Virus record (IMG/VR): IMGVR_UViG_3300006413_000010 | Coordinates: 1-22,157 of that record | Reading direction: 5' to 3' (one strand) | Length of the DNA: 22,157 bases | Source of the DNA: a virus | Shown: positions 11,503 to 21,157 of the stretch, piece by piece | Layout: the number at the start of each line of letters is the position of its first letter | How positions within the stretch are numbered: the stretch's first letter is position 1 | The notes under the pieces: model-generated | Databases searched by the model: none | Told to the model about the DNA's origin: nothing | What the model saw: only the letters and a program-made list of their open reading frames with translations | Translations under genes and position numbers: made by a program

Positions 11503-12449
11503 TCCGCAAAATCTAATGCTGTTTTAAGAGCATCTCTTTTTCTGGCTTGATCGCCAGCAAACCATGAAGAGTACATTCTGTTATCGGCGTTTGCGCCCTT
11601 CAAATGGTCAGTTACAAAAGTAACTGAGTTAAAAGCCTGCCACCAAGAACCTTCGGCATACTTTGAACCCGGTTGAGTATTAATATTATCGTAAGCTAAC
11701 TTAGCGTTACGTGATAATGTCTCAACTGATAGAGGTTGATTTTGAACTCTCTTATCAGCAGTTCTAGGAAACACAGTGTTATAATACTCTATAAGCTTAT
11801 CTATATTGTATCTCTTTGAACCGAGAAACTCAGCCATTTCTTTATACTGCTCGAGTTTTGCAGTAGCGATACCAAGAGCTTTCTTGACCTCTGTAGCGTC
11901 GAACTCGACTCTGTGGCCGACTCTTACAGATCTTTCAGCTTCCATCTCAAGAGATAAAGATAAAGTGTTGTTACAAACTACTCTGATTGGAGTAAATCTA
12001 ACGTCAATTGAATGACCATACCTATGTGGATTTGAAAACAATAAGTACGAATCAACTTGATCTCCGCCAAAAAGATCGAAAGACTCTTTAACTTTAGCGA
12101 GAGCCCATACAATCTGTCCATTTCTTAATGAACCTGCTGTATGCATCTCCATATCGCCAGCGAGAACGTACTCACTGAAAAAGTTGAAGGCATCTTCGTT
12201 TTGAACGGGATTCCACACTGGACCGACGTTAGTAAGAATTCTACCGTCAGTACTTCTTACGAGAGCTCTTTGACCGGTCTCGATTTTTTTACCATCGTGC
12301 TCGATGTACGATGGACATTCAATGACGGACCAGTCAAGACCAGCTTTTTCCATCATTTGATTTGGTGTAAGATCATTAGAGACCTGTACACCTAGGCCGT
12401 GCCAAGGAACTTCTCCTGCATAAGCCATAGTTTCTACGTTGTGAGCCAT
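11493..12449 (-). CDS. DUF932 / phage-plasmid-like protein (TIGR03299 type), 318 aa
   Basis: The N-terminal block AHNVETMAYAGEVPWHGLGV and the later DGRILTNVGPVWNPVQNEDA, FFSEYVLAGDMEMHTAGSLR and FTPIRVVCNNTLSLSL match the DUF932 family found widely in phages and plasmids. The family's molecular role is not settled. A GGAAGG-type site precedes the ATG. The length, about 320 residues, is normal for the family, so it looks intact. It lies between a terminator on each side and so may be its own transcription unit. No clear promoter was identified in the 45 bases between the upstream hairpin and the start. Confidence 0.92.
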   Translation of the reverse strand: MAHNVETMAYAGEVPWHGLGVQVSNDLTPNQMMEKAGLDWSVIECPSYIEHDGKKIETGQRALVRSTDGRILTNVGPVWNPVQNEDAFNFFSEYVLAGDMEMHTAGSLRNGQIVWALAKVKESFDLFGGDQVDSYLLFSNPHRYGHSIDVRFTPIRVVCNNTLSLSLEMEAERSVRVGHRVEFDATEVKKALGIATAKLEQYKEMAEFLGSKRYNIDKLIEYYNTVFPRTADKRVQNQPLSVETLSRNAKLAYDNINTQPGSKYAEGSWWQAFNSVTFVTDHLKGANADNRMYSSWFAGDQARKRDALKTALDFAEVA

Positions 12450-12486
12450 AATATAACCTTCCTTTCTATGCTAATATAATATAGGC

Positions 12487-12510
12487 TAAAAATAATTCTG
12501 CGAACAGAAT
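12487..12510 (-). terminator. rho-independent terminator with UUCG loop
   Basis: ATTCTG-TTCG-CAGAAT on the minus strand (12510-12495) forms a 6-bp stem with a UUCG loop followed by TATTTTTAG. It lies 36 bases after the 88-aa gene and before the DUF932 gene. The rest of the 96-base gap shows an AT-rich stretch and no gene. Confidence 0.75.
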
Positions 12511-12545
12511 GAACGAACAAATAAAATATAGTATTGATTTAAACA

Positions 12546-12812
12546 TTAGTTAATTCTCCAACCAAGATTTTCCTCGACCCAGTCATTACCTAAGTCATAA
12601 CCGATAGAGATGATAGCGTGCTCTCTTGGAAGAGTGTCCATGTACTGGATTAACTTCTTAGCGCCAGAGATATTACCGTCCTTAAAGAAATTTAAGATTG
12701 ACTTGTAATCTTGAGCGTCTTGCTTGTACATATCAGCCATATCTTCTTTGACAGCCCAATCCATCTTTGATAACTTAACTGTTTCTGAGATTAATTTTTT
12801 TAAATGCTTCAT
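12546..12812 (-). CDS. conserved hypothetical early protein, 88 aa
   Basis: The start was set at ATG 12812 (MKHLKKLISETVKLSKMDWA) because AGGAG lies 6 bases upstream. A TTG two codons earlier was rejected. It is a small helical, acidic protein (DMYKQDAQDYKSILNFFKDG, GAKKLIQYMDTLPREHAIIS, then YDLGNDWVEENLGWRIN). It has its own strong promoter (12874-12846) and a terminator after it, so it is a single-gene unit. From memory, proteins with a MDTxPREHxIxxI pattern occur in marine T4-like phages. The function is unknown; early expression and small size fit a host-takeover role. Confidence 0.8.
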   Translation of the reverse strand: MKHLKKLISETVKLSKMDWAVKEDMADMYKQDAQDYKSILNFFKDGNISGAKKLIQYMDTLPREHAIISIGYDLGNDWVEENLGWRIN

Positions 12813-13857: not shown

Positions 13858-14133
13858 CTAGGAGTAGTAGGGATCGACGTTTGAGTTCGGGTCCTCCACC
13901 CCGTCGACCGCGTGAACCTCAGGAACGTAGTGCTTGAGCATGTTCTCGATTCCCATCTTCAGAGTGGCGGAAGACATCGCGCATCCGGAGCACGCGCCGG
14001 TGAGAAACATCGTGGCGACTCCGTCCTCGTACTTCTGCAGAGAGACGTGTCCGCCGTGCGACTGAACGTGCGGTAAGATACTCTCGTCGAGAATTCTCTG
14101 TATGTCTTTGACCACCTCATCGTTGGTTCGCAT
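13858..14133 (-). CDS. NifU C-terminal (Nfu)-type Fe-S cluster protein, 91 aa
   Basis: The protein has the Nfu domain from about residue 8 to 78: IQRILDESILPHVQSHGGHV, then the core LTGACSGCAMSSATLKMGIE with the cluster-binding C48-x-x-C51. Nfu proteins hold or deliver [4Fe-4S] clusters to apo-enzymes. The length is that of a free-standing domain. AGGAG precedes the ATG. Third codon positions are visibly G/C-rich, unlike the genes further down, and match the 14161 and 16203 genes. The radical SAM enzyme 2 kb away would be a client needing clusters, which is inference. Nfu-like genes are known as metabolic genes in marine phages. Confidence 0.92.
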   Translation of the reverse strand: MRTNDEVVKDIQRILDESILPHVQSHGGHVSLQKYEDGVATMFLTGACSGCAMSSATLKMGIENMLKHYVPEVHAVDGVEDPNSNVDPYYS

Positions 14134-14160: not shown

Positions 14161-14835
14161 TTAGCATCCCGTGAAGTCGCTGTCTCGAGCGAGCCAGTCC
14201 GGATGCATGTCGTAGTGATACTCCTCCGTGTCTCCTAAGCGATACTCGTTTCCGTTCTCGACCTGATAGTACTCGGTAGAGACCTTAAAGTCAGGAGTCT
14301 TCGGCTCCTTCGGAGTCAGGCTGTTATCGTAGACTCTCATCCTGTTATTCGGATAGAGAGCGAACTGCCCGTTCTCCAACTCTAACAAGTTAAAAGACTT
14401 GTGCTCGTCCGGCTGTTCCGCCGTAGAGTAATCGATCTCGTCAGCGTGTACGTGATAGTTATCAAGTGTTGCTATATAAGAACCTTTGACTCTTCCATGA
14501 CTCTTCGTCCATACCTCGTAATCCATAGAACCAATGAACTGTTTCTGTATACAAGTCACGCCATAGTCCATGCAATTCCAGAACTGCAACTCAGGCAACG
14601 CCATATCTAAGGAAGGAGTCTCCGGAGAAGCGACGAAGGCGGATATCGGTAACTTATCGAACAAGGCACCGTACTCTGGTAGAAAGGTCTCAAAATAAAA
14701 GGCGCGACCTGGGATAGACTTTGCGGTAACCCAGTGGCCCTCGACGAACTCACCGTGACCGTCCTCGAGATCTCGTAGGTATTCACGGCGCACCCACACT
14801 TTATTGTTGGGTATATTACAAATTAAATGCGACAT
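14161..14835 (-). CDS. conserved marine T4-like phage protein, 224 aa
   Basis: The start was placed at ATG 14835 (MSHLICNIPNNKVWVRREYL). An in-frame ATG at 14868 would add 11 residues that look non-conserved. The sequence FVEGHWVTAKSIPGRAFYFE, TFLPEYGALFDKLPISAFV, and LQFWNCMDYGVTCIQKQFIG strongly resembles, from memory, a single-copy unknown protein of marine T4-like myoviruses. No nucleotide- or metal-binding motif is clear. The tail from about residue 150 is hydrophilic. No good ribosome-binding site is seen for either start. It lies 27 bases before the Nfu gene, so the two may share a transcript. G/C-ending codons dominate. Confidence 0.8.
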   Translation of the reverse strand: MSHLICNIPNNKVWVRREYLRDLEDGHGEFVEGHWVTAKSIPGRAFYFETFLPEYGALFDKLPISAFVASPETPSLDMALPELQFWNCMDYGVTCIQKQFIGSMDYEVWTKSHGRVKGSYIATLDNYHVHADEIDYSTAEQPDEHKSFNLLELENGQFALYPNNRMRVYDNSLTPKEPKTPDFKVSTEYYQVENGNEYRLGDTEEYHYDMHPDWLARDSDFTGC

Positions 14836-15102
14836 GTATCTATCTATACAAAAAAGGTCCGCGGGCAAATTTTCCCGAGAAAAAAATTTTTATAAAAAGG
14901 TATTCTGAAAAAAATCTGAGTCTCATAAAACGCTTAGATCGATCGAGCCCACTGTAGACGGTGGCGCGAGATTCTGAAATATAAACCCCCTATATAGAGG
15001 GATCCCTGCCGTGACCGCTGAGACCCTGAAACAGTATACTCTATAGTATCTAGCCTAGTGGCGCCAGATCAGTGCTCTGTGGTCCTCTGAGGGACGCGCC
15101 CT
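14836..15102. other. 267-base non-coding, structured, G+C-rich intergenic segment
   Basis: No open frame of note was found on either strand. The segment holds several short inverted repeats: CCCTC/GAGGG-type around 14985-15002, GTCC...GGAC around 15081-15094, CCAC...GTGG around 14949-14965. A motif (G/A)xxCTGAAA recurs three times: TATTCTGAAA 14901-14910, GAGATTCTGAAA 14968-14979 and GAGACCCTGAAA 15020-15031. Long A/T homopolymers lie at 14878-14900. It separates the 70-aa gene from the 224-aa gene and could hold a non-coding RNA, a long leader or a processing region. I see no tRNA fold and no good sigma70 promoter. Confidence 0.45.
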
Positions 15103-15926: not shown

Positions 15927-16076
15927 ATGAAAAAAAGTTTTAACGTGCAGGATATTAAGAGGAACATGAGCACGAAGAAGAATGTGCAAACTGACCCTAT
16001 AGATATATTACGAGGAAGGATAAAGAGATTAAGAGAAAGGTTGATATGGTTACGCTCACTACACAGGACCACGTGA
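15927..16076 (+). CDS. basic microprotein, 49 aa
   Basis: The frame is MKKSFNVQDIKRNMSTKKNV then QTDPIDILRGRIKRLRERLI and a short tail ending HRTT. The second half is a strongly amphipathic basic helix. It overlaps the next plus-strand gene by 31 bases. An AAAGGA lies upstream but is far from the ATG, so the start is uncertain. It is probably the first gene of the small plus-strand unit that leads to the radical SAM gene. The function is unknown. Confidence 0.5.
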   Translation: MKKSFNVQDIKRNMSTKKNVQTDPIDILRGRIKRLRERLIWLRSLHRTT

Positions 16077-16216
16077 TGTGTGGTCTGACGGCGATCATGT
16101 TGTTCGTCGCCATGAAGATAGCGTTCTGGAGCCCGATATGGTGTGGGCTCATGATATGGTTTAACATGTCGATGTTCGACCGGTACGCTAGGAAGAGACG
16201 CGATGAGAATACCTAG
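16046..16216 (+). CDS. small two-span membrane protein, 56 aa
   Basis: The frame is MVTLTTQDHVMCGLTAIMLF then VAMKIAFWSPIWCGLMIWFN and a basic tail MSMFDRYARKRRDENT. Two hydrophobic helices (about 10-25 and 28-43) are joined by a short Trp-Ser-Pro turn, with a positive C-terminus that should stay in the cytoplasm. AAAGG lies 5 bases before the ATG. The 3' end overlaps the radical SAM start by 14 bases, so the two are probably coupled. The hairpin topology would fit a membrane adaptor or a holin-like protein. No family is assigned. Confidence 0.68.
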   Translation: MVTLTTQDHVMCGLTAIMLFVAMKIAFWSPIWCGLMIWFNMSMFDRYARKRRDENT

Positions 16217-17090
16217 CGCTCTCTACATCGAGACGACGAACCTCTGTAACGCTCGCTGCGTCTTCTGTTACTACCCGAAGGTACACGGAACGATGCCCGT
16301 CAAGTACATGGACATGGACCTGTTTCGAAAGATCGTCGACGAGTTCGTCGAGATGGGTGGTGACACGATATCGCTGACTCCGACGATCGCCGACCCGCTG
16401 GTCGACAAGATGATAGACGAGAGACTTCGTTATATCGACTCCACTCCTATCAAGAAGCTGAGATTCTACTCGAACTTTATTAACTTTCGCGACAAGACGA
16501 GAGAGGCCTTCGAGTCCATGTCGCACACGCACTTCAATATCGGTATCTCTATGACGGGATTTAATCGGAACATGTACAACAAGCTTATGGGTGTTGACAA
16601 GTTCGACAAGGTGATGACTAACCTACGCGAGCTGTCGAAGATCGTACGAACGAATCCTTTCGTCAGCGCGCACTTGGTACTACGTCGATACGAGGGAGAC
16701 ACCGGAGAGACGAATCGCATGGCCGAGTTCTGCAGGTCTATGGGGCTCGGACATCAGTGGGCTACCGAGTTCGACACGTGGGGTGGACTGATGGAAGAGG
16801 AGATCAAGAGTAACGAGTTCATCGGCAATCGACTACGAAAGAGACTACCGAGGACGAGACCGTGTGAGGTGACCTATCGTAAGCCGTTGATTACCGTCGA
16901 CGGAGACTACAAGGTTTGCGAGTGTCGTGACGTCTTCGGAGAGCTGGTGATAGGTAACGTCAAGTTACAGTCTTTTCGAGAGATGTGGGAAGGACCAGAG
17001 CTTAAGGCCTTAAGAGACAGGTTCTATAATCCTGACACTCTGCCAGAGATATGTAAGAAGTGCGAAGTTTACGCGCCGGCGAACGTATGA
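16203..17090 (+). CDS. radical SAM/SPASM-domain enzyme, 295 aa
   Basis: The N-terminus reads IETTNLCNARCVFCYYP: C15-x3-C19-x2-C22, the [4Fe-4S]-SAM motif. A TIM-barrel-like middle (about 40-200) follows. The C-terminal region (about 220-290) has C221, C239, C241, C284 and C287 in the order RPCEVTY ... VDGDYKVCECRD ... LVIGNVKLQSFREMWEG ... CKKCEVY, which is a SPASM/twitch auxiliary cluster domain. Such enzymes mature peptides or modify small molecules by radical chemistry. The substrate is not evident. AGGAAGAG lies just before the ATG. It overlaps the oxygenase-like gene downstream by ATGA, so the two enzymes are made together. G/C-rich third positions suggest a different origin from the AT-rich genes nearby. 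Confidence 0.93.
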   Translation: MRIPSALYIETTNLCNARCVFCYYPKVHGTMPVKYMDMDLFRKIVDEFVEMGGDTISLTPTIADPLVDKMIDERLRYIDSTPIKKLRFYSNFINFRDKTREAFESMSHTHFNIGISMTGFNRNMYNKLMGVDKFDKVMTNLRELSKIVRTNPFVSAHLVLRRYEGDTGETNRMAEFCRSMGLGHQWATEFDTWGGLMEEEIKSNEFIGNRLRKRLPRTRPCEVTYRKPLITVDGDYKVCECRDVFGELVIGNVKLQSFREMWEGPELKALRDRFYNPDTLPEICKKCEVYAPANV

Positions 17091-17551
17091 TACACGAGAT
17101 AGATTACGAGTACGACAGGTTACTACTACTCGAGGAGAGTATGGACCGAGACTACAAGTCTTTCGTCGACTCGAAGACCGGACTGGTATGGGACGAGTGG
17201 CTTATCTGTAGAGACATCGGTCCTGTCGGATCGAAGATCGCCGCAGACTTCGAGTCGATACTCAAGACGAAGATCGAGCCAAGATACTACATTCAAAGAA
17301 AAGGAATGAGACTACCGTTTCACTGTGATCGAGGTACGCAGTGCGCGATTAACCTGATACTTAACGGCAGTCAGGACGCTATCGAGTTTCGAGTAGACGA
17401 CAAGGTCTACACCAATCACTATCAAAGCGCATTGATCGACACGCAGACAGAACATCAGGTCGTCACGGTGACGGGTGACAGGATACTGTACAAGTTATCT
17501 ATGAAAGAGATGTCGTTCGATCAAGCGAAAAAAGCTTTAGTTGATCTCTGA
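17087..17551 (+). CDS. small 2OG-Fe(II) oxygenase-like protein, paralog A, 154 aa
   Basis: The start is ATG 17087 (MIHEIDYEYDRLLLLEES), within the ATGA overlap of the rSAM gene. A longer in-frame extension into rSAM was rejected. The metal triad pattern is H79-C-D81 (LPFHCDRGTQCAINLIL), H123 (TQTEHQVVTV) and the 2-oxoglutarate-binding R132 (GDRILYKL), with the usual strand IEFRVDDKVYTNHYQSALID between. This is the HxD...H...R order of small double-stranded beta-helix oxygenases of the aspartyl/prolyl hydroxylase type. Two paralogs lie nearby on the minus strand (17499-17984, 19910-20401). The last 53 bases overlap the end of one of them tail to tail. The target of hydroxylation is unknown. 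Confidence 0.85.
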   Translation: MIHEIDYEYDRLLLLEESMDRDYKSFVDSKTGLVWDEWLICRDIGPVGSKIAADFESILKTKIEPRYYIQRKGMRLPFHCDRGTQCAINLILNGSQDAIEFRVDDKVYTNHYQSALIDTQTEHQVVTVTGDRILYKLSMKEMSFDQAKKALVDL

Positions 17552-17984
17552 TCTCTTCGTAAGAATTTTCTAAGTAAGCGAACATGAGTAACAGTCTTTC
17601 TTTTGGATAGGCCGGAACCATGTGCATTCTACTGTTGTTAAATAGAGCGCACTCGTACTTGACCTCTCCAAATTCTTCAAATATTGCAGGACCATAGTCA
17701 TCTGATAATATGATATTAACAGCACAGCGAGTCTTCGGGTCTGTGTGCATGTGAACGTACGCGTTTGGTCGTAACGTAAAAGCGATAATATTACTTCCTT
17801 TAAATTTTTTATGAAGAGAGTCTATGATAGGATAGTCATTCGTGTCTTGCAAAGTGGCTCTTAACCAAGTGTCTTTGATGTTTGGTGACGTAAAAAAAGT
17901 CTTAAAATCAAGTCTTCTAAATTCTTCTCTTAATTTTATCTTATCGTATTCGAGTTTAAGGTGCGTTATAAACTGATTTTCCAT
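17499..17984 (-). CDS. small 2OG-Fe(II) oxygenase-like protein, paralog B, 161 aa
   Basis: The pattern VHMHTDPKTRCAVNIILSDD gives H80-T-D82. FEEFGEVKYECALFNNSRMH gives H121, and PKERLLLMFAY gives R130. Spacing and the CALFN.S..H.V....ERLLL block match paralog C at 19910-20401 closely and paralog A less closely. It is the last gene of the minus-strand metabolic operon, starting next to the end of the GNAT-like gene (stop and start share one base). Its C-terminal tail YEEIRDQLKLFSL aligns with the tail of paralog C (FEEVKSELTEKGL), which supports that the 53-base antisense overlap with paralog A is real coding on both strands. The substrate is unknown. Confidence 0.85.
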   Translation of the reverse strand: MENQFITHLKLEYDKIKLREEFRRLDFKTFFTSPNIKDTWLRATLQDTNDYPIIDSLHKKFKGSNIIAFTLRPNAYVHMHTDPKTRCAVNIILSDDYGPAIFEEFGEVKYECALFNNSRMHMVPAYPKERLLLMFAYLENSYEEIRDQLKLFSLDRTTSLS

Positions 17985-18511
17985 TATACTTTTGGTAGTC
18001 CTATAGTGTCTTTGTTAGTGATGATATGTTGATGGCACTTTGGATTACTTCTATCGCACGTAAGATACAAGTCTGGTAGAAGTTGATACTTGTATTTTGG
18101 ATCAAAGTATTGCATGAATCTTTTTATTGAATTTGTTTTATCTACTTCTGCACTCATCGAAATAAATGGTTGATACATATTTTCTACAGCCCATTCAGTC
18201 TGTGTTGATACGAAATACTCGACGCAAAATCTAATATTTTTGTTAATGAACTTGTTGATACCAAATCTTCTATAAGATCTTAATGTACAATACCTATCAC
18301 ATATTCTTACTAAGTTGTTTTCAAATTTAATAATTCCTCCAAAGGCGACAGGAATATCGTTATCTTCTAGTAGATGAAACTTGAGATATCTGTTCCATCT
18401 TTTTTTCATTTTTTCGAATTGATAGTTCTCGGCATTGCGGTGATTATCATTAGCAGCTTCGTGAAGAACTAATTTTAATTCTTCAATATCTGTTATCTCT
18501 CTTATCAGCAT
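17984..18511 (-). CDS. GNAT-like acyltransferase candidate, 175 aa
   Basis: The start was set at ATG 18511 (MLIREITDIEELKLVLHEAA), which overlaps the TauD-like stop by 7 bases. The fold cues are an N-terminal IREITDIEEL helix, strands IPVAFGGIIKFENNLVRICD, and the segment RSYRRFGINKFINKNIRF, which resembles the R/QxxGxG/A acetyl-CoA pyrophosphate loop of GNAT N-acyltransferases. The Gly spacing is not perfect, so the call is moderate. Such a protein could acylate a product of the neighbouring oxygenases or desaturase. It sits fifth in an operon where every junction overlaps. Confidence 0.6.
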   Translation of the reverse strand: MLIREITDIEELKLVLHEAANDNHRNAENYQFEKMKKRWNRYLKFHLLEDNDIPVAFGGIIKFENNLVRICDRYCTLRSYRRFGINKFINKNIRFCVEYFVSTQTEWAVENMYQPFISMSAEVDKTNSIKRFMQYFDPKYKYQLLPDLYLTCDRSNPKCHQHIITNKDTIGLPKV

Positions 18512-19209
18512 GCGCCGGCGAGTCTCCACAGATGTCTGTTTCCAGCGCTCGTGCCTTCTCTCTTATGATTAGTCGTTAGGTTGTTACTAATCATCAAGTC
18601 GCCTTTCTTCCACTTGTGATAGTATATTCTGTCAGGCGCGTATAGAATATCTTCCATAATCTTTTTCTCGTCTGATGGCAAATCAGTGTACGCTTCAGAA
18701 TAAAATACGTATTTGCTTTTAGAGTCTTCTTGTACTAACTGGTGTTTAACATTTCGATACTTCAATCGAAACCATCTTCTGTCTGCCTCGGTCTTAAACT
18801 TATATCCATACCTCTCGCTCTTTGTAAATCTGTCCATGTTTGCAGATACGATTCTGTCTGGTATCGGGCATTCGATTCGATTACTTACGAACATAGTTCT
18901 ACCAGCGTCGTCAGTTACGTCGACCGCGTAGAGTCCGGTAATGTGTACAGGATCTTGCATGTAACCGCCGTCCATGTGCCATTCTAAATCAGAACTACTA
19001 TAAAGATTACCTTTTCCCTCTCCACTACTCGTAATATCGAGAAATATCGTGTCCATCGGATTCTGTCCTACGACCTCGTAGTACTGACTTACAAACTTAA
19101 ATATTTCCATTTGAGATGGAGGAGTATTCTCAATAACCATCAAATCAGTATCTTTTCGCTTGAGAGGAGACAGGTCTCTATCTTCCCACTTTTGTATCGT
19201 TACTTCCAT
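18505..19209 (-). CDS. TauD/TfdA-like 2OG-Fe(II) dioxygenase, 234 aa
   Basis: H78-M-D80 in LEWHMDGGYMQDPVHITGLY, H215 in GDLMISNNLTTNHKREGTS, and arginines R225 and R229 (RHLWRL) give the HxD...H...R layout of the TauD (taurine/gamma-butyrobetaine) dioxygenase family. DDAGRTMFVS fits the usual strand after the HxD loop. It is shorter than typical TauD proteins (about 270-300) but has all catalytic residues. These enzymes hydroxylate or desaturate small molecules and lipid tails using iron and 2-oxoglutarate. It is coupled to the desaturase upstream by TAATG and to the GNAT-like gene downstream. Confidence 0.88.
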   Translation of the reverse strand: MEVTIQKWEDRDLSPLKRKDTDLMVIENTPPSQMEIFKFVSQYYEVVGQNPMDTIFLDITSSGEGKGNLYSSSDLEWHMDGGYMQDPVHITGLYAVDVTDDAGRTMFVSNRIECPIPDRIVSANMDRFTKSERYGYKFKTEADRRWFRLKYRNVKHQLVQEDSKSKYVFYSEAYTDLPSDEKKIMEDILYAPDRIYYHKWKKGDLMISNNLTTNHKREGTSAGNRHLWRLAGAC

Positions 19210-19913
19210 TATGTACTCCTTATCAGTTTTATAAAGAAATAAGTTGGATCTATAGGTCCGTGTCTTAATTTCTTAGAATCGTCATGATGCGCTTTATGAT
19301 ACCCTTCACCAGCAGTAAAAAGATTAATCAAAGCGTTATTTGTAGCTTCTCCAGTCTTATGCAGGTATGCGTTAAATAGTCCAAATAAATGAGAACTTAA
19401 TACGCATGGTAGAGCGTACGCAAATACTAACAATAATGGATCAATGACGAGTAATGTTACGACCAGAACGCCAACCATCTTAAAATAATGATCGTGCCAA
19501 AACTTAAGGATCTTATTATTGATGAGACCTTTAAAAAACTTTCTTTCTATCTTCTGATCTAATCCCCACAAGTTAAAATATATTCTCCAGAATCCATAAT
19601 GAGTCGGAGACTGTGGATCTTTCTCTGTATCAGAATACGCGTGATGTTGCCTGTGAATCGCGGCTCTCGTTAAGTACGGGCCAGATCCTACGAACAAACT
19701 TAAAATATTAGTAAAGTATTCAAACCACTTACCAGCTTTAAAAGCACCGTGAGAGTAATATCTATGATAGCCTGCACTTGACGACGCGATAGTAATAAAA
19801 TAATACCAAGCAAAACCTGCTATCCACATCCACCAAGAACCATAGAACGCACCATACACTAGAGCGACATGACATAAACTGTGATTGATTAATAACTTAT
19901 ATGTAGTCTTCAA
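19209..19913 (-). CDS. acyl-CoA/fatty acid desaturase (delta-9 type), 234 aa
   Basis: Three histidine boxes are present: H50-RYYS-H55 (SAGYHRYYSHGAFK), H87-RQHH (RAAIHRQHHAYSD) and H206-KAHH (GEGYHKAHHDDSK). Four hydrophobic segments lie at about 8-24, 28-45, 65-80 and 145-172, as in membrane di-iron desaturases that put a double bond in acyl chains. The start codon appears to be TTG (19913-19911), overlapping the TGA of the upstream oxygenase gene as TTGA; no earlier ATG fits. The enzyme would act in the host inner membrane and could alter membrane fluidity or feed an acyl product into the neighbouring enzymes. Desaturase genes are known as metabolic genes of marine phages. Confidence 0.93.
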   Translation of the reverse strand: MKTTYKLLINHSLCHVALVYGAFYGSWWMWIAGFAWYYFITIASSSAGYHRYYSHGAFKAGKWFEYFTNILSLFVGSGPYLTRAAIHRQHHAYSDTEKDPQSPTHYGFWRIYFNLWGLDQKIERKFFKGLINNKILKFWHDHYFKMVGVLVVTLLVIDPLLLVFAYALPCVLSSHLFGLFNAYLHKTGEATNNALINLFTAGEGYHKAHHDDSKKLRHGPIDPTYFFIKLIRST

Positions 19914-20401
19914 ATTAAACCTTTTTCTGTCAGCTCGCTCTTTACTTCTTCAAAAGTCTTTTTATGCCAAGCATATTTTAATAACAATCGATCTTTTGGA
20001 TGAGCTTTAACGCTGTGTACTTGTGAAACGTCTATCAAGGCGTGTTTATAATAAACATCGCCGTGATCAAAAGTCATTGGAGCTCTATCTTCTGTTAACA
20101 GTAAATTAACTGCTGTTATAACATCGTAATCACGGTGTCTTGGCAAATCAGAATTTGCTAGTTGTTTATACACGTACATGATATCGCACTCGAGTATAGA
20201 ATTTATTCGTGCGATCTCAGGTAAGTTACTAGTGTCTTCAATAATAGTTTTCAACCACGTGTCAGTCTTTTTCCAAAATTGTTTCAATTCTTCAGTTTGA
20301 GCTCTCCACCAATTATTAGAGTGCCCGGGCTGCAAGTCAAGAGTACTGATCTCGTCTATTACTTTTTGCTCGTCGAAAGAAATCTTTATTTCTGTTATCA
20401 T
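19910..20401 (-). CDS. small 2OG-Fe(II) oxygenase-like protein, paralog C, 163 aa
   Basis: LPRHRDYDVITAVNLLL gives H89-R-D91, DVSQVHSVKAHPKDRLLLKY gives H129 and R138. The central strands PMTFDHGDVYYKHALID match the paralogs at 17499-17984 and 17087-17551. The N-terminal 60 residues are helical with a Trp-rich patch (NNWWRAQTEELKQFWKK). It is the second gene of the minus-strand operon, with an ATGA overlap to the 29-aa membrane protein upstream and a TTGA overlap to the desaturase downstream. Position next to the desaturase suggests a lipid or protein substrate, but this is not known. Confidence 0.87.
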   Translation of the reverse strand: MITEIKISFDEQKVIDEISTLDLQPGHSNNWWRAQTEELKQFWKKTDTWLKTIIEDTSNLPEIARINSILECDIMYVYKQLANSDLPRHRDYDVITAVNLLLTEDRAPMTFDHGDVYYKHALIDVSQVHSVKAHPKDRLLLKYAWHKKTFEEVKSELTEKGLI

Positions 20402-20487
20402 GACGATACCTTTATCGCTACATAAATTAATGTACCTAATATACTAAAATTTATAATCATATTTACGTAGTGTGGATTCGGTGCCAT
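20398..20487 (-). CDS. single-span membrane microprotein, 29 aa
   Basis: The frame MAPNPHYVNMIINFSILGTL-IYVAIKVSS has one transmembrane helix (about 9-26). AGGAG precedes the ATG, and the TGA overlaps the ATG of the downstream oxygenase (ATGA), so it is translated as the leader gene of the operon. It could be a membrane anchor or a coupling peptide. It is too short to assign. Confidence 0.65.
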   Translation of the reverse strand: MAPNPHYVNMIINFSILGTLIYVAIKVSS

Positions 20488-20795: not shown

Positions 20796-20860
20796 ATTGT
20801 CCTCCTGTGTGTGTTGGTGGAGAGATTCTGTTTCCACGCTCTCTCCGAAGCGCATAGGAA

Positions 20861-20905
20861 TTACGCAGCTTGCGCAAACTCCTGAGGTGCAAAATTATCG
20901 TTTGC
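20861..20905 (-). other. tmRNA proteolysis-tag frame, ANDNFAPQEFAQAA
   Basis: GCA AAC GAT AAT TTT GCA CCT followed by CAG GAG TTT GCG CAA GCT GCG and TAA encodes a 14-residue tag. The AND start matches bacterial tmRNA tags and the ANDNFA start matches alphaproteobacterial ones. The end is QAA rather than the common LAA or VAA. Confidence 0.9.
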
Positions 20906-20991
20906 ATTTATAGTTTTGTTCGCATTAACCGAGCTTACATCCGGATAACTCCACATCGCTATTCAATACCTGTCGATCCTATTTCAGCCCC

Positions 20992-21040
20992 ATCGGGAAT
21001 ACCTGAAGACTTCCGTAACTTTACGTGCATCAGGTATTCT
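20992..21040 (-). other. excised spacer of the pre-tmRNA, with a perfect hairpin
   Basis: Between the CCA end and the mature 5' G lie 49 bases containing a perfect 10-bp inverted repeat (GAATACCTGA with TCAGGTATTC, 21039-21030 and 21006-20997) and an inner CGTAA/TTACG repeat. It would hold the two pieces together before processing (RNase P at the 5' end and 3' trimming). Confidence 0.75.
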
Positions 21041-21111
21041 TGGTGGAGCTGACGGGTACCGCCCCCGTGTCCAGAATATATTTCGCTTTGTTTCATCGTT
21101 ATATAGTATAT

Positions 21112-21140
21112 ATTATACCACATTTTTTGACGTTTGTAAA
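21112..21140 (-). promoter_or_regulatory. early-type promoter of the tmRNA unit, TTTACA-N17-TGG-TATAAT
   Basis: The -35 TTTACA is at 21140-21135 and the -10 TATAAT at 21117-21112, with a TGG extension. Transcription would start at about 21105, just before the acceptor piece. It is the same promoter design as the early protein genes, so the tmRNA is probably made early. A divergent late promoter lies 9 bases away. Confidence 0.88.
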
Positions 21141-21149
21141 CCTTTTTTT

Positions 21150-21157
21150 TATAAATA
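21150..21157 (+). promoter_or_regulatory. T4-type late promoter TATAAATA
   Basis: A perfect TATAAATA on the plus strand, 20 bases before ATG 21178, with GAGGA between. The spacing leaves a normal short leader, so this is the best-placed late promoter in the window. Confidence 0.82.

Follow-up and report, generated by a model that had tools for sequence, protein, structure and literature searches.

The sequence studied here, hereafter the window, is a 22,157-base virus fragment from IMG/VR (IMGVR_UViG_3300006413_000010). A first-pass annotation had described positions 16203-20487 as a block of iron-enzyme genes in two convergent units with overlapping junctions, and all ORFs of this block were found in their places, overlaps included. 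The plus-strand unit begins with a hydrophobic, membrane-type ORF of 56 amino acids (16046-16216), followed by the gene for a radical SAM/SPASM enzyme (16203-17090) and that for a small 2OG-type oxygenase, ox3 (17087-17551). The minus-strand unit is headed by a 29-amino-acid hydrophobic ORF of uncertain coding status (20398-20487), which precedes a second small oxygenase, ox1 (19910-20401), a membrane di-iron acyl-CoA-desaturase-like protein (19209-19913), a TauD-family 2OG oxygenase (18505-19209), a GNAT-like probable N-acyl/acetyltransferase (17984-18511), and the third small oxygenase, ox2 (17499-17984). Neighboring genes are joined by ATGA-type overlaps at 17087/17090 and 19910/19913, by 1-base overlaps at 19209 and 17984, and by a 7-base overlap at 18505-18511, and the tails of the two convergent units overlap by 53 bases, bearing out the layout that had been reported. 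The iron requirement of the block's enzymes is a known property of their families.

The genes outside the block resemble those of Kyanoviridae phages, among them C48C1 (one protein at 64%) as well as Melnitz, HTVC008M, and cyanophages. They include a NifU-like protein (13858-14133, minus strand), and the next ORF (14161-14838, minus strand) belongs to a family annotated in cyanophages as ferredoxin, PurM, or transcriptional regulator. Beside the block lies a two-piece tmRNA of the Alphaproteobacteria type (20816-21157, minus strand; RF01849, E 6e-37), which is also present in the related contigs L001, L006, and L015, the last additionally having a glutamine riboswitch. Phage tmRNAs and riboswitches of this kind have already been published for Melnitz and Mosig (PMC9004378).

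Pfam matches and motif residues confirmed the presence of the radical SAM/SPASM, TauD, and desaturase genes. The radical SAM protein matches PF04055 (E 1e-13) and the SPASM family PF13186 (E 4e-10), both above the Pfam cut-off, with its CX3CX2C motif at C15/C19/C22 and its SPASM-region cysteines at 221-287; no subfamily cut-off was reached in NCBIfam. The TauD protein matches PF02668 (E 2e-18, 67.7 bits against a cut-off of 27), and its residues H78, D80, H215, and R225 are invariant in 21 distinct sequences. Its matches in the PDB are 7tcl and PvcB; ScoE is a weaker match, far under the curated cut-off. The desaturase matches PF00487 (E 5e-12, 46.5 bits against a cut-off of 29.7), a family whose substrates are acyl chains, and its PDB match is acyl-CoA desaturase (4zyo/4ymk). 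The histidines of its boxes, at positions 50, 55, 87, 90, 91, 185, 206, 209, and 210, are conserved in 20 distinct sequences, one of which is gapped at the final two.

The three small oxygenases are paralogs with 30-31% pairwise identity. Each has an HxD motif and a distal histidine followed exactly 9 residues on by an arginine (H89, D91, H129, and R138 in ox1; H80, D82, H121, and R130 in ox2; H79, D81, H123, and R132 in ox3), and these residues are invariant in 8 distinct homologs, in agreement with the earlier description of three paralogous HxD...H...R proteins. None of the three matches Pfam. Structure prediction, which had been suggested as a check, gave an AF2 model of ox1 with a pLDDT of 90 and a pTM of 0.85 that matches the structures of PHD2, P4H, AlkB, and AspH, with VIA Z scores of 12-14 to the PHD2, P4H, and AlkB folds. 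The small proteins are thus predicted to have the double-stranded beta-helix fold of 2OG oxygenases, ox1 through its model and ox2 and ox3 through homology to it.

The possible acyltransferase of the first-pass annotation is the least certain of these assignments to a family. The window protein matches no Pfam model above cut-off, GNAT included, and PF00583 appears only marginally in 2 of 12 homologs (best E 0.018); we therefore call it GNAT-like and not a member of the family. In a low-confidence AF2 model (pLDDT 58) the order of elements fits GNAT, and GNATs are listed among its matches by both Foldseek (best E 1e-4) and VIA (Z about 9), a family absent from these lists not being counted as excluded. 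The GNAT-like proteins of the window clade are likely homologous to those encoded in the tail islands of other contigs, because reciprocal HMM searches (E 2.8e-5 and 9e-5) rank each as the other's next match; the profile-profile score between them is weak (hhalign probability 8.7%).

The conserved core of the block consists of the desaturase, the GNAT-like protein, and TauD. An alignment search with TauD found 28 virus contigs, of which 20 also carry the desaturase and the GNAT, counted initially with an HMM that included both the window and tail-island clades; the remaining 8 are cut by a contig end adjoining TauD or GNAT. The corresponding search with the desaturase found 51 virus contigs, 22 with a desaturase at 71-99% identity and 29 with one at 38% or less. 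Since one of the 22 ends inside the desaturase gene, 21 contigs of the close group could be tested, and TauD and GNAT both lie nearby in 20 of these 21; of the 29 with a distant desaturase, none has either gene (Fisher p 4e-13, the contigs not being independent). In the exception, L059, a predicted 2OG-type protein adjoins the desaturase in place of TauD and GNAT. Several large virus contigs (L073 and L076-L081) have 2-4 tandem or closely spaced desaturase paralogs but neither TauD nor GNAT.

The core genes occur in four different arrangements, and across 15 non-redundant contigs the divergences of the three are correlated with one another (Spearman 0.73, 0.89, and 0.86). On the ten contigs that share a neighboring 113-amino-acid tail-associated gene, the divergences of TauD and the desaturase are correlated with each other (Spearman 0.87) but not with that gene (-0.10 and 0.16). 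The core genes have been inherited together as one unit, with their active-site residues intact. This core recurs in some twenty further virus sequences, in many cases near tail-fibre genes, and its members therefore probably serve one tailoring pathway.

Other members of the block vary around this core. In a relative, L001 (IMGVR_UViG_3300047365_000330), the order ox1-desaturase-TauD-GNAT-ox2, convergent with ox3, is the same as in the window, and ox2 is 92% identical. Between the two, the block genes have been under strong purifying selection (dN 0.03-0.21, dS 0.6 to saturated), with dN far lower than dS. L015 has the order ox1-desaturase-TauD-GNAT. All three small oxygenases are retained in L001, one in L015, and at least one in a few other relatives, which links them moderately to the core pathway. 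A similar small membrane-type ORF precedes an exchangeable slot in the window, L001 (9647-9829), and L015 (7497-7658), the counterparts in the relatives being 53-60 amino acids long. The slot holds the radical SAM gene in the window, a 245-amino-acid Asp/Arg-hydroxylase-like protein in L001, and in L015 two other predicted 2OG oxygenases of 193 and 286 amino acids, which have oxygenase-like HxD motifs and no Pfam match. Extra oxygenases of the small P4H-like and Asp/Arg-hydroxylase-like kinds have been added or swapped around the core, as has a radical SAM/SPASM enzyme in the window.

The radical SAM gene has a GC content of 51% (68% at third codon positions) compared to 38% for the window, and this GC-rich slot suggests recent exchange. 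No close viral relative of the enzyme was found, its sole viral matches being to Campylobacter phages at 28% identity over half of the protein. Because the slot is exchangeable, GC-rich in the window, and filled by a gene without a close viral relative, we place the radical SAM gene outside the core and rule it out as a core member. The first-pass annotation had proposed that the block is a pathway rather than a scatter of metabolic genes, and had suggested looking for the same gene set elsewhere. The proposal is well supported for the desaturase, TauD, and GNAT, which recur and diverge together with their catalytic residues conserved, and to a moderate degree for the small oxygenases. It is not supported for the radical SAM gene as a core member, whose slot has different occupants in the relatives and which in part shows the independent occurrence that would have spoken against a shared pathway.

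The cassette appears in these searches as a viral feature. A search of 84,980 bacterial and archaeal genomes, limited by short peptide patterns, gave no relative of it. A bacterial origin of the unit was rejected within the same short-pattern limits: the TauD scan returned 0 matches, and the one match of the desaturase scan was to Woesearchaeota, at 32%. We also found no isolated phages with close relatives of TauD, GNAT, or the small oxygenases. A search for the gp23 capsid gave no signal on any sequence, controls among them, and carries no weight.

Most cassettes adjoin tail-fibre genes, and several of their islands also hold genes for a nitroreductase, an epimerase, a methyltransferase, a glycosyltransferase-like protein, or a radical SAM enzyme. 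Of 30 contigs that carry the cassette or are related, 8 have radical SAM matches, none of them close to the window enzyme. One 57-kb contig (L041/G028, IMGVR_UViG_3300026097_001066) has eleven radical SAM genes beside the cassette, at 9.5-25.5 kb, where the cassette, further 2OG-type genes, and the radical SAM genes sit between tail and baseplate genes. Two proteins of such oxygenase islands (L016 1807-2496 and G028 11868-12611) contain SGGxDS, a motif that ATP pyrophosphatases typically have. The window block itself lies near the tmRNA and away from recognized tail-fibre genes. In pelagimyophages, Zaragoza-Solas and colleagues described this region as a host recognition cluster that contains glycosyltransferases along with radical SAM cassettes, and alteration of the surface was proposed for it; such islands are hypervariable (PMC7029224).

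We tentatively propose, at somewhat less than even odds, that the block is a mobile oxidative and acyl tailoring pathway of marine T4-like phages whose product ends up on the lipid or surface glycan of the host envelope. Located in the inner membrane of the host, the desaturase would oxidize an acyl chain or a substrate held in the membrane. Its product would then be further hydroxylated or desaturated by TauD and the small 2OG enzymes, and the GNAT-like protein would link the acyl group to an amine. The modified group would be placed on an envelope lipid or surface glycan, giving the infected cell an altered surface that could act, for example, against superinfection, with the radical SAM enzyme as an optional further tailoring step. 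We draw the link to the envelope because cassettes adjoin tail-fibre genes, because several islands contain glycosyltransferase-like, epimerase, and methyltransferase genes and one contig has eleven radical SAM genes, and because the published pelagimyophage region has been proposed to alter the surface (PMC7029224); since the window block is not beside recognized tail-fibre genes, this link is taken from its relatives. Other points also count against an envelope pathway. The GNAT assignment is weak, the cassette contains no gene for a lipid, ACP, or sugar donor, and the nearest solved relatives of TauD include PvcB, an enzyme that acts on an isonitrile amino-acid derivative, which would fit a small metabolite too. 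We regard as rather doubtful the broader proposal that the cassette is restricted to viruses, was not borrowed as a unit from a sequenced host, makes a modified acyl or amino group new to the host and places it on the envelope of the infected cell or on virions, and is extended by interchangeable 2OG and radical SAM enzymes.

The same enzymes could instead act on the virion, with the small 2OG enzymes hydroxylating side chains, the GNAT acylating lysines or N-termini, and TauD and the radical SAM enzyme modifying tail-fibre or other phage proteins. The proximity of the ox1 model to prolyl/HIF hydroxylase, AspH, and AlkB folds would suit such a role, as would the position of many cassettes beside tail-fibre genes, and some SPASM enzymes modify peptides. 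However, an integral-membrane acyl-desaturase-like enzyme in the core would be odd for protein modification, the cassette diverges independently of the neighboring 113-amino-acid tail-associated gene, and the window block lies away from recognized tail genes, and we consider virion modification unlikely. We assign a similarly low chance to a soluble small metabolite, such as an N-acyl amino acid or an isonitrile-like or metallophore-like compound, used for host manipulation or counter-defence. In its favor, 7tcl and PvcB (and, more weakly, ScoE) are nearest to TauD, and in the Mosig island discussed below the same enzyme types are accompanied by an aminotransferase, an FMN reductase, a peroxiredoxin, and methyltransferases. 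Against it, the cassette showed no PvcA-like isonitrile synthase, NRPS, or ligase, the desaturase is located in the membrane, and the similarity to PvcB is remote.

That the block is a gathering of independent auxiliary genes at a plastic hotspot, with no shared pathway, would agree with the exchangeable radical SAM slot and with the hypervariability of such islands (PMC7029224). This is unlikely for the core, which stays intact through four arrangements and in all but one of 21 contigs, its genes diverging in a correlated way, but it may apply to the radical SAM gene and in part to the small oxygenases; as an account of the whole block we judge it improbable. If the envelope tailoring proposed above does take place, the cassette would provide a mechanism for the surface remodelling proposed for SAR11-type phages. 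The joint role of the abundant 2OG oxygenase and radical SAM genes of marine phages is largely unexplained, and a core that is stable across four arrangements offers a small testable set of three genes and one small oxygenase.

Islands of this kind and the enzyme types in them are already known from marine phages; the cassette as a unit appears to be undescribed, no account of a desaturase-GNAT-TauD cassette having been found in the open-access literature. For TauD, the nearest named relatives among solved and curated proteins are PvcB and ScoE of isonitrile pathways, at a remote similarity, and no PvcA-like isonitrile synthase was present among the annotated or Pfam-scanned genes. In its enzyme types the cassette is analogous to the ornithine-lipid pathway. 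There, an amine acyltransferase and lipid hydroxylases (OlsB and OlsC/OlsD/OlsE) act on one envelope lipid (PMC3972451); the cassette differs in having no Pfam acyltransferase family above cut-off and no visible OlsA. Among marine T4-like phages, cyanomyophages carry many 2OG enzymes, and P-HM1 and P-HM2 have a TauD along with two asparaginyl hydroxylases (PMC3037559), but the TauD of P-HM2 lies among replication genes, and no desaturase or GNAT is listed with it.

There is also a close likeness to the pelagimyophage islands (PMC7029224) and to that of Pelagibacter phage Mosig EXVC030M (MT647606), which, like the cassettes of the window's relatives, are hypervariable and adjoin tail-fibre genes; the window block differs from them in its nearby tmRNA. 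The Mosig island contains Asp_Arg_Hydrox-like, FA_desaturase, TauD, GNAT, and radical SAM genes, as well as an aminotransferase, an FMN reductase, a peroxiredoxin, and methyltransferases. Its proteins are far from those of the window (32-36% identity for the desaturase, 26% for TauD, and a barely detectable similarity for GNAT), and with other genes intervening it represents a looser version of this enzyme set.
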